A DNA stretch of 50,113 nt, from the NCBI GenBank assembly GCA_021325595.1, contig JAJPGX010000029.1, forward strand, positions 1 to 50,113, given 5' to 3'. This document shows, piece by piece, positions 29,575 to 40,013 of this stretch. The stretch is from Nitrososphaerota archaeon. GTDB lineage: Archaea; Thermoproteota; Nitrososphaeria; Nitrososphaerales; Nitrosopumilaceae. Numbering within the stretch: the first letter of the stretch is position 1; every line of letters starts with the position of its first letter. The translations under genes and the position numbers were made by a program. The notes under the pieces were generated by a model, which worked only from the letters and a program-made list of their open reading frames with translations, was not told where the DNA came from and did no database searches.

Positions 29575-30900
29575 TTATCCAAGACCCATTTTTCTTAACA
29601 TGCCCTGTAGTTGTCTTCCTTTTGAGGCCTTCATCATAGTTTTGGAGTTTTTGTATGCTTTGAGGAGTTCTTTTACCTCATGCTCTGGCCATCCAGAACC
29701 TCTTGCTATTCTCTTTACTCTGGAGGCGTTTATCAAATCAGGATCTGCTTTTTCGTCCTTTGTCATTGATTGTATAATAAATCTCCATTTTTCCATTCGT
29801 TCTTCTTGTTGTTCCAGTTGGTCTTCTTTTACCATTCCTGAAAGTCCAGGCATGTTTTCAAGAATGCTACGTAATCCTCCGGCTCTTGTCGCTTCTTCAA
29901 TTTGGAAGTAAAAATCCTCCATGTTCATCTTTCCATGCGATATTCTTTTTAGTCTGTCCTCATTTCCTTCCGTCTCCAATCGCTTTGCCATATCAAGTAG
30001 AGCTTGAATATCGCCCATTCCAAGAAGTCTTCCGACAAATCGAGTAGGAGAAAACTTTTCAAGATCATCAATTCTTTCACCGGTTCCAATATACATTATT
30101 CTAGCACCAGTAGCTGCTGCAGCCGCAAGTGCACCACCTCCTTTTGCACTGCTGTCAAGTTTTGTTATTATTATTCCACCCACTGGAACAGTTTTATGAA
30201 AAGCTTCTGCTTGACTATAACACTGTTGTCCTATTGTACCATCAATTACAAGTAATGCAAGGTCTGGATTTGCTACCTTACCGATTCGTAGCATTTCATC
30301 AAGAAGATCTTTTTCTTCTTTATGTCTACCAGCAGTATCTATTAGTATGATATCAAAATTTTGCCCCTCAAAGTGTTTTAGCCCATTTTGTACAATTTCT
30401 GGTGAGTCTTTGTTCCCTTCCTCACCATATACCTCAACATTTGCTTTTTCACACATTGTCTTTAACTGAGTAAGTGCACCTGGTCTGTAAGTATCTGCAC
30501 CTATGACTGCTACTCTATATCCTTGTCGCGTTAGTAGCTTAGCTAGCTTGGATGTGACTGTAGTTTTTCCACTTCCTTGTATTCCTAGCATCAATACTCT
30601 GTTTGTTCTACCTGGCTGGAAGGAAAATTGATCATCAGTTCCAAGTAGTTTAGCAAGTTCGTCATATAGAATTTTTACAATATGATCTTTCCTTGATAGT
30701 CCTGGAGGCGGTGTTTCTTTAAGTGATCTTTCTTCTAAATTCTTTGTGATCTCAAACACCAATTTTACATTAACGTCTGATTGAAGCAATGCCCTTTGGA
30801 TATCTTTTGATAATTCCTTTATGAGCGCCTCATCTATAGCAGAAGAGTTTACTATTTTTTTAAGAGCAGAGCGAAGACCATTTTTTAGACCGTCTAACAT
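29575..30900 (-). CDS. srp54: Signal recognition particle subunit SRP54
   Basis: 441 residues. N-domain helices (1-90), then the GTPase: GIQGSGKTT near 104, DTYRPGAL near 136, DTAGRH near 188 and TKLDSSAKGGGAL near 246. The M-domain (from about 300) is Met-rich and binds signal peptide and SRP RNA. The last Ffh/SRP54 helix (KGRQLQGMLRKMG) is complete. It overlaps the Dph6-like gene by one base (TAATG). The partner SRP19 is 5.5 kb away; no SRP RNA was seen here. Confidence 0.97.
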   Translation of the reverse strand: MLDGLKNGLRSALKKIVNSSAIDEALIKELSKDIQRALLQSDVNVKLVFEITKNLEERSLKETPPPGLSRKDHIVKILYDELAKLLGTDDQFSFQPGRTNRVLMLGIQGSGKTTVTSKLAKLLTRQGYRVAVIGADTYRPGALTQLKTMCEKANVEVYGEEGNKDSPEIVQNGLKHFEGQNFDIILIDTAGRHKEEKDLLDEMLRIGKVANPDLALLVIDGTIGQQCYSQAEAFHKTVPVGGIIITKLDSSAKGGGALAAAAATGARIMYIGTGERIDDLEKFSPTRFVGRLLGMGDIQALLDMAKRLETEGNEDRLKRISHGKMNMEDFYFQIEEATRAGGLRSILENMPGLSGMVKEDQLEQQEERMEKWRFIIQSMTKDEKADPDLINASRVKRIARGSGWPEHEVKELLKAYKNSKTMMKASKGRQLQGMLRKMGLG

Positions 30901-31583
30901 TACTTGTCTAGGATGGCTTCGGTTATTTCAAATCTTCCTCTATATCCGTCCCAGATCTTGTTTGCTTTTACTATTTTAATTGGATGTGAGAACAATGGAC
31001 AATCAATTACAAAGGTTTCAGCTTCTCCACCTTCAAAGGCAAGATGAAATCCATATTTTGATGAAAGTGAATCTAAAGTTTGTATTTCCTTAGTTGTGAT
31101 CTCTTTACCAAGCCAGATATCATCAAGGCCTGCAGCTGTAACACTTGTAACAATAAATCTAAAACCAGAATCCAATAGTTCGGCTAAGTATTTTCTATCA
31201 TCTATGTGCCAAATAGGTGAAACAACATGTAAGTTTAATTTTTTCCCAATACTTTCAAAACGATTTTTCTGATACTCACTTAAGATTCCTCCATGAACGA
31301 GTCCTTCTATTCCAAATTCTCTTTTTGCTTTTTTTAACAATTCTTCTAATTTTTCAATCTCATTTTGTTCATCATTGTTTTCTAATAAAATAGAAAGATG
31401 TGGAATTTTCATTGATTCTGCTTGAAGACTAGTCCATGATATGTTAGGATGGTGTAGTAGATGACTTTCTGCAGATTCTGGATAAAGTGATACAAGACAT
31501 ACTATATTGTGTCCATTCTGTTTTGTCTTGAATATTGAAAAAGTACTGTCCTTTCCACCAGAAAAGAGCGATGCTAGATTCAA
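30900..31583 (-). CDS. dph6: Diphthine-ammonia ligase-like ATP pyrophosphatase (Dph6 family)
   Basis: 227 residues from TTG. The PP-loop FSGGKDSTFS opens the protein. EGLVHGGILSEYQKNRFE near 115 and FEGGEAETFVIDCPLF near 192 are the Dph6 blocks. Adds the amide to diphthine on elongation factor 2 in the last step of diphthamide synthesis. Cotranscribed with srp54, as often seen in archaea. A 37-residue zinc protein lies just upstream. Confidence 0.9.
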   Translation of the reverse strand: MNLASLFSGGKDSTFSIFKTKQNGHNIVCLVSLYPESAESHLLHHPNISWTSLQAESMKIPHLSILLENNDEQNEIEKLEELLKKAKREFGIEGLVHGGILSEYQKNRFESIGKKLNLHVVSPIWHIDDRKYLAELLDSGFRFIVTSVTAAGLDDIWLGKEITTKEIQTLDSLSSKYGFHLAFEGGEAETFVIDCPLFSHPIKIVKANKIWDGYRGRFEITEAILDK

Positions 31584-31721: not shown

Positions 31722-31775
31722 TATTTCAGTATTACATGTCGTACTGTATAACTTGTTCTCACATTAGAAAAGCCT

Positions 31776-31841
31776 GGATGCCTCAAGACTCATAATCTTC
31801 ATCATATGATCAGATGGCTTTTCTCTTCATCATCAGCATCC
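31776..31841 (-). ncRNA. C/D-box sRNA, predicted guide for Cm34 of elongator tRNA-Met
   Basis: Read on the minus strand: terminal stem GGATGC (31841-31836) with GCATCC (31781-31776); box C ATGATGA (31833-31827); 13-base guide 1 (31826-31814); box D' CTGA (31813-31810); 4-base spacer; box C' ATGATGA (31805-31799); 12-base guide 2 (31798-31787); box D TTGA (31786-31783). Guide 2 is complementary to GACTCATAATCT, which reads as a CAU anticodon loop with self-pairing stem ends. The base opposite the fifth guide position before box D is the C of CAU, i.e. C34. Guide 1 target unknown. Starts a few bases after the aIF5A stop. Confidence 0.8.
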
Positions 31842-31844
31842 GAA

Positions 31845-32252
31845 TTAACTTTTGATTCGGACTATAAGAGTTCTATCCATTACTTTCCAGTATTCAACAT
31901 CTTGACCTTGCGCAATCTTGTCTTTAATTTCGTCTTCAATCTGAGTGATGTCAAATACCTCAAATGTTTCAGAGTCCATAACCTGAACTATTGAATCAGT
32001 TTTTGAAATAACAGAGCCATTTCTTTTGTCGATGAGTGGTACTTGGACTTGAGCACTCACTGGAGAGACGTGTGGATATTTTTTCTTGTCAAATATCCCA
32101 ACTCCGACAATTCTTGCTTTTGCTGCACCATGTTTACCTGGTTTGCTTGTATCATATTCTACAATTCTGCATGGCTCTGCATTTGGATTGTCAACTGGGA
32201 GTAAGATATAGGAACCAATTTTTAGTGAACCTAGTTCGGACGGCTTGCTCAT
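31845..32252 (-). CDS. eif5a: Translation initiation factor 5A
   Basis: 135 residues. The hypusine loop STSKPGKHGAAK places the modified Lys at residue 40. SH3-like N-domain and OB-fold C-domain are both present. The ATG chosen is 26 bases after a strong gttatatactc box; a TTG two codons earlier is possible. Promotes peptide-bond formation at Pro-rich stretches. The stop lies in a CCGAAT/ATTCGG stem, and the C/D sRNA follows immediately, so the sRNA could be processed from this mRNA. Confidence 0.95.
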   Translation of the reverse strand: MSKPSELGSLKIGSYILLPVDNPNAEPCRIVEYDTSKPGKHGAAKARIVGVGIFDKKKYPHVSPVSAQVQVPLIDKRNGSVISKTDSIVQVMDSETFEVFDITQIEDEIKDKIAQGQDVEYWKVMDRTLIVRIKS

Positions 32253-32321
32253 CACCAAAACAGAATTTGCCAGAGTATATAACTTTTCTATTATAATTAA
32301 ATAGGATCTTCAGATCACAAT

Positions 32322-33058: not shown

Positions 33059-33178
33059 CCCACGCTAGCTCAGCCTGGTAGAGCTTCCGGCTGTAGTGGT
33101 TGGCTATTGGCTGACCGTCATCAGCCTATCAGGCATACAGAAACCGGGTTGTCGCAGGTTCAAGTCCTGCGCGTGGGA
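33059..33178 (+). tRNA. tRNA-Tyr(GTA) with intron
   Basis: Acceptor CCCACGC/GCGTGGG, D-stem GCTC/GAGC, anticodon stem TCCGG/CCGGG, loop CTGTAG+A with anticodon GTA, T-arm GCAGG TTCAAGT CCTGC, A73, and an encoded CCA at 33179-33181. A 46-base intron (33097-33142) interrupts the loop between positions 37 and 38. CTGT/ACAG pairing across the junctions with 3-base bulges fits the bulge-helix-bulge cut by archaeal endonuclease. The intron holds its own hairpin (GGCTGA/TCAGCC). A gttatttaata box lies about 30 bases upstream. Confidence 0.95.
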
Positions 33179-39912: not shown

Positions 39913-40013
39913 GCAGAGGTATCGAAGCCCGGCCAACCGAGAAGGACTCAAGATTTTGGCAATAGGAAATCCTTTCCCTCAGGGGTTCGGGGGTTCAAAT
40001 CCCTCCCTCTGCA
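39913..40013 (+). tRNA. tRNA-Leu(CAA) with a 16-base intron
   Basis: Acceptor GCAGAGG/CCTCTGC, 3-bp D-stem TCG/CGA, anticodon stem AAGGA/TCCTT, loop CTCAAG+A giving anticodon CAA, a long variable arm (39975-39988, CCC/GGG stem) as in class II tRNAs, T-arm GGGGG TTCAAAT CCCTC, A73. The anticodon stem pairs well only if 39953-39968 are removed, so I infer a very short intron at 37/38. A gttatatattc box lies about 25 bases upstream. Confidence 0.92.

Follow-up and report, generated by a model that had tools for sequence, protein, structure and literature searches.

Box C/D RNAs that guide methylation of the wobble cytidine of tRNA-Met are already known. In Haloferax volcanii, the box C/D RNA sR-tMet guides Cm34 in elongator pre-tRNA-Met (Joardar et al. 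2011, cited in PMC6601510), while Pyrococcus sR49 is a predicted Cm34 guide for tRNA-Met, and sR41 of the same genus has the equivalent of G1950 as its proposed 23S target (PMC2584109). The human box C/D RNAs SNORD97 and SCARNA97 serve Cm34 of elongator tRNA-Met too (PMC6601510). This modification restricts the pairing of C34 to G only (PMC7668247). Most archaeal C/D sRNAs have no promoter of their own and are trimmed out of longer RNAs (PMC7994747).

The sRNA considered here spans 66 nt (31776..31841, minus strand) in a window of 50,113 nt, the whole stretch of DNA that was analysed, which derives from a metagenome-assembled genome (MAG) of 1.64 Mb, 99% complete; its host is a Nitrosotalea-group archaeon. 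Like Haloferax sR-tMet it is a box C/D RNA predicted to mark the wobble base of elongator tRNA-Met, but it differs in lineage and sequence; its tRNA has an intron at 30/31, whereas the Haloferax work concerned the pre-tRNA. With Pyrococcus sR49 it shares the predicted target and the logic of methylating opposite the fifth guide base before the box (N+5), but we find no evidence of homology, since the score against sR49 (RF01303) is 13.3 bits, far below the cut-off of 50, and leaves the window sRNA outside that family. Rfam at gathering scores gives no match at the locus; at permissive scores nearly all matches are to C/D-box families, the best being sR41 (RF01126; 30.5 bits, cut-off 54, E 2e-05, hence not a member), with RF01291 at 17.8 bits (cut-off 45). 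Pyrococcus sR41 has the same C/D layout, and yet its proposed target is neither C2510 nor tRNA-Met. In the human system the same nucleotide is methylated, but the setting is eukaryotic and two RNAs cooperate. What is added here to the known Cm34 guides is therefore this family and, in this lineage, the pairing of an rRNA with a tRNA target. A literature search of incomplete coverage found nothing published on the C/D sRNAs of ammonia-oxidising archaea, for which the present results supply a conserved guide-RNA family.

Architecture and conservation of the locus

Read directly, the minus strand from 31841 to 31776 is GGATGCT-G-ATGATGA-AGAGAAAAGCCAT-CTGA-TCAT-ATGATGA-AGATTATGAGTC-TTGA-GGCATCC. 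The 5' arm of the terminal stem, GGATGCT (31835..31841), forms 7 bp with the 3' arm, GGCATCC (31776..31782), and encloses box C (AUGAUGA, 31827..31833), the D' guide AGAGAAAAGCCAT (31814..31826), box D' (CUGA, 31810..31813), a 4-nt D'-C' spacer (UCAU, 31806..31809) that differs in length and sequence among relatives, box C' (AUGAUGA, 31799..31805), the 12-nt D guide AGATTATGAGTC (31787..31798) and box D (UUGA, 31783..31786), all on the minus strand. The ordered boxes C, D', C' and D within about 50-70 nt, the terminal stem, the k-turn sequences and the guides of 10-13 nt, abutting boxes D and D' with the target base in fifth position, are those of the C/D sRNA class, and their arrangement is far beyond chance. 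In an alignment of 42 sequences, in which box D' is also seen, AUGAU of box C and UGAUGA of box C' are invariant. Box D is NUGA throughout the family (UUGA in 50, AUGA in 11 and GUGA in two of 63 loci), and CUGA in most of the Nitrososphaeraceae-type relatives listed.

Directly upstream lies the gene for aIF5A (31845..32258, minus strand; Pfam IF5A-like_N and eIF-5a), the stop codon of which occupies 31845-31847, so that the sRNA begins three bases beyond it. The conserved downstream neighbour encodes a Dph6-like diphthamide synthase (30900..31583, minus strand; Pfam PF01902, E 7.6e-57). A sequence-only reading of this DNA had placed a C/D-box sRNA at 31776-31841, a few bases past the aIF5A stop, with the boxes in this order, a matched terminal stem and TTGA rather than CTGA as box D; direct reading of the minus strand agrees on every point, and the Pfam matches confirm the identity of aIF5A.

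The C/D-box identity proposed by that reading is borne out by the relatives. Our family set comprised 121 genomes of 22 genera, 108 of which yielded aIF5A; among the 90 aIF5A-flanking stretches that were read, a strict pattern matched the sRNA in 63 and variants occurred in several more, boxes and guide being kept in relatives that retain aIF5A. A covariance model built from the 42 sequences found the sRNA in 117 of the 121 genomes at E <= 0.1, at least 110 of them strongly, and in all 22 genera. The model gives the window sRNA 86 bits (E 9.5e-21), a score to be read knowing that this sequence is in the training set, and it also has weaker matches in other families of the order. In the terminal stem, 99.7% of the cells of the 42 sequences are paired, with double-sided changes at six of the seven pairs (0 of 500 shuffles). 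The gene neighbourhood is also widely kept: a pattern search over 119 named genome records identified, by motif, aIF5A upstream together with Dph6 downstream in 87, while 116 of the records show the Dph6 motif on the downstream side; elsewhere in the order, several further families have the sRNA next to aIF5A, Dph6 or both. The RNA is nonetheless unchanged where it lies away from aIF5A, at 0.4-3 kb in three genomes (G018, G003 and G061) and at about 20 kb in two (G025 and G093).

The two guides and their predicted targets

The reverse complement of the D guide is GACTCATAATCT. The window's genome carries a CAU tRNA at G000:C48:70694-70786 that reads CCAG[TCCACATAAAGGGTAAT]ACTCATAATCTGG, the inner bracketed part being an intron of 17 nt at 30/31, removal of which restores a perfect anticodon stem, CCAGA-CUCAUAA-UCUGG. 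Against exon 2 of this tRNA the D guide pairs at 11 of 12 positions in the gene and at 12 of 12 once spliced, and by the N+5 rule the base facing the G at 31791 (minus strand), the fifth before box D, is C34. Complementarity to the anticodon arm with C34 at N+5 is what characterises the tRNA-Met Cm34 guides of the class of sR-tMet and sR49. Positions 3-11 of the guide are invariant in the 42 sequences (core GATTATGAG), and wherever the tRNA was read in the family it is of the same CAU type, with the intron at 30/31 and the mature arm CCAGA-CUCAUAA-UCUGG. The spacing corresponding to the D guide is 12 nt in 58 of 63 loci, which puts C34 at N+5. Another 12/12 match to the D guide, at G000:C5:7647, was set aside, as the site is outside any tRNA.

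Which CAU tRNA is this? In the complete genome of a genus-mate (G058), with 41 tRNA genes, the CAU tRNA beginning GCCGGGG is the sole strong match (12/12); the runner-up tRNA offers a contiguous 10-nt match that includes two G-U pairs, and pairing with the other CAU tRNA covers about eight positions. That other tRNA (GGGCCCA) resembles tRNA-Ile GAT and looks, from its sequence, like Ile2. A search of the tRNA sets of the window's genome and of G058 for a third CAU tRNA found none, each set having only two. Three G-C pairs in the anticodon stem mark initiator tRNAs (PMC7668247). Since the stem of the target lacks these pairs and the other CAU tRNA is Ile2-like, the target is assigned by elimination, and in view of its acceptor sequence, as the probable elongator tRNA-Met.

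The position of the intron raises the question of which form of the tRNA may be recognised. Base 1 of the window's D guide, a C, pairs with G30, a nucleotide that is brought next to A31 by splicing. Recognition of the spliced tRNA alone was considered and dropped, because base 1 is mostly A, T or G in relatives; it varies, A being commonest, and shows no consistent agreement with G30 or with the final base of the intron, so no preference for either form can be assigned. Positions 2-11 pair wholly inside exon 2, and pre-tRNA and spliced tRNA are thus both possible substrates.

The sequence-only reading had interpreted the locus as a guide for C34 of elongator tRNA-Met. For its guide 2, our D guide, this reading is supported by the match to the tRNA gene of the same genome and by the preference over the other CAU tRNA, the methylation itself being predicted; it was incomplete in that the 23S rRNA target of the other guide went unnoticed. 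The core of this D' guide, GAAAAGCC, is nearly as invariant as the D guide in the alignment of 42 sequences. Because the window's own MAG was searched for rRNA genes and contains none, relatives were used, and the 23S match in the window's family (f1) rests on one genus-mate genome, G058. There the best rRNA match is 23S GGCUUUUC, inside the universal stretch CCUCGAUGUCGGCU, which we take to be E. coli 23S 2498-2511, so that the fifth base before box D', the G at 31818 (minus strand), would pair with C2510. C2510 lies beside the peptidyl-transferase centre. Judged by length the complementarity is not significant, as the 8 bp found in G058 were reached by 159 of 300 shuffled guides when both locus strands were searched, and the case therefore rests on conservation and on co-change of guide and target.

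In all five families tested, one and the same 23S site is the best rRNA match of the D' guide. In family f1 (G058), 23S GGCUUUUCC goes with D' guide GAAAAGCC, and seven other families (f2, f3, f4 and f6-f9) have 23S GGCUCUUCC, the D' guide of other families being GGAAGAGCC. Among the families in which 23S was read, the guide is GAAGAGCC wherever a homologue was found (f2, f3 in G129, f4, f7 and f8), and the same guide occurs in f12, f13 and f16, which lie outside the 23S reading. Comparing f1 with the other families, the guide differs exactly where the 23S target differs, its changed base being the complement of that in the target. This is natural evidence for an rRNA target and gives the sRNA a second guide with a co-varying rRNA partner beside its tRNA guide, with the f1 23S taken from one genome. 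The co-change was probably a single event, basal to the family; as evidence it is consequently strong, though not repeated. One f3 genome (G146, 5% contamination; locus L272) has an f1-type D' guide, GGAAAAGCC (core GAAAAGCC); the D guide of this locus is unrelated, and aIF5A is absent from its upstream side.

Directly after the stem, the window sequence continues with a 3' trailer, GGCTTTTCT (31766..31774, minus strand), of which 9 nt are complementary to the D' guide and which also resembles the 23S target. It is clade-specific: most members of genera g1, g6, g8, g12, g20 and g21 have a trailer with an 8-10 nt complement of the D' guide, which is absent elsewhere. L070 has a hairpin between trailer and D' guide as its best predicted fold; the window sequence, L087 and L073 do not. 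The trailer may act as a terminator, or it may keep the D' guide locked within the precursor.

Proposed function and alternative explanations

Architecture, conservation, the N+5 complementarity of both guides and the co-change with 23S together point to predicted methylation of both rRNA and tRNA, and we consider it very probable that the locus encodes a C/D-box guide sRNA with two targets, C34 of elongator tRNA-Met for the D guide and C2510 of 23S rRNA for the D' guide. The sRNA would be produced, probably as a 3' segment of the aIF5A transcript, from which, or from whose 3' region, it would be released, the precursor being trimmed to a body protected by L7Ae, Nop5 and fibrillarin. The D guide would then pair with positions 31-41 of the anticodon arm of elongator tRNA-Met and direct 2'-O-methylation of the wobble C34, and the D' guide with 23S G2508-C2515 (E. 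coli numbering), directing 2'-O-methylation of C2510. We infer that the RNA is expressed, freed from the aIF5A transcript and assembled into an RNP, and that it guides methylation. The two predicted marks are specific enough to be testable in cultured strains.

Would a single target suffice? The sRNA could serve only Cm34 of elongator tRNA-Met, its D' guide being an orphan and the 23S match due to chance, as the insignificance of an 8-bp match taken alone would allow. There is a parallel in Pyrobaculum, where, according to a review (PMC7994747), the other guide of tRNA-guiding sRNAs lacks a target; a double use for rRNA and tRNA would be unlike this pattern, and is of interest for that reason. 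An orphan, however, would hardly be expected to have a core only slightly less invariant than the D guide, to be the more conserved of the two beyond the family, where f2, f4, f12 and f16 keep GGAAGAGCC despite unrelated D guides, or to change together with the 23S site between families; this explanation is therefore unlikely.

We give still less credence to a conserved k-turn at the 3' end of the aIF5A mRNA that would bind L7Ae and regulate aIF5A, with the guide-like sequences being secondary. Archaeal L7Ae binds k-turns and has been proposed as a translation regulator (PMC5539422), and the element does follow the aIF5A stop by 3 nt in a neighbourhood kept over many genera; yet the sRNA is unchanged when hundreds of bases to about 20 kb separate it from aIF5A, as in the five genomes mentioned above, and regulation needs no invariant guide cores that match actual tRNA and rRNA sites at N+5. 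That the boxes arose by chance in an intergenic stretch, a thought suggested by the shortness of the motifs and the empty Rfam result at gathering scores, is refuted by conservation of the element in 117 of 121 genomes with compensatory changes in its stem, and its likelihood is negligible.

Variation of the guides within the family and the order

The two-target guide varies in an instructive way in a subclade of Nitrosotalea, where five of the 63 loci have a box C'-box D spacing of 13 nt, or 11 nt in one case (genomes G067, G073, G079, G108 and G118; loci L066, L074, L075, L076 and L079). A spacing of 11 or 13 nt makes the N+5 base A35 or U33 instead of C34. The mark may have moved, the altered spacing may be tolerated, or the guide may be in decay; the subclade constitutes a natural test of the N+5 rule. 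Its trailer is changed as well, to GGCTTTCTC.

Beyond the family, f2, f4, f12 and f16 combine the conserved D' guide with different D guides, and the one in f16, GATCTTGAG, is complementary to the loop of tRNA-Leu CAA. The 23S guide appears, from these comparisons, to be the old and fixed half of the molecule and the tRNA guide its exchangeable half. In evolutionary terms, we would tentatively extend this into a broader proposal, to which we assign somewhat less than an even chance: a single sRNA beside aIF5A and Dph6 in Nitrosopumilaceae, and beside one or both in several other families, may tie methylation of 23S C2510 to that of the tRNA-Met wobble base, with a fixed 23S guide, a D guide that can be swapped (tRNA-Leu CAA in f16; tRNA-Met in f1, f7, f8 and f13) and a mark moved to U33 or A35 in the Nitrosotalea subclade.

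A few observations were made in passing. Other families of the order have a second C/D sRNA family with the guide GATCTTGAG and a predicted Cm34 in tRNA-Leu(CAA) (L290, L291, L293, L294, L295, L298 and L299). An initiator tRNA-Met was not recognised in the tRNA sets of the window's genome or G058, perhaps owing to unusual introns. In the window itself, the whole-genome search revealed a tRNA-Tyr(GTA) with a long intron (33059-33178, plus strand), which ARAGORN at default and the Rfam scan of the window had missed. An intron-bearing tRNA at 39913-40013 (plus strand), missed by ARAGORN at default and called Ser(cga) when long introns are allowed, has the loop CTCAAG and is most likely tRNA-Leu(CAA).
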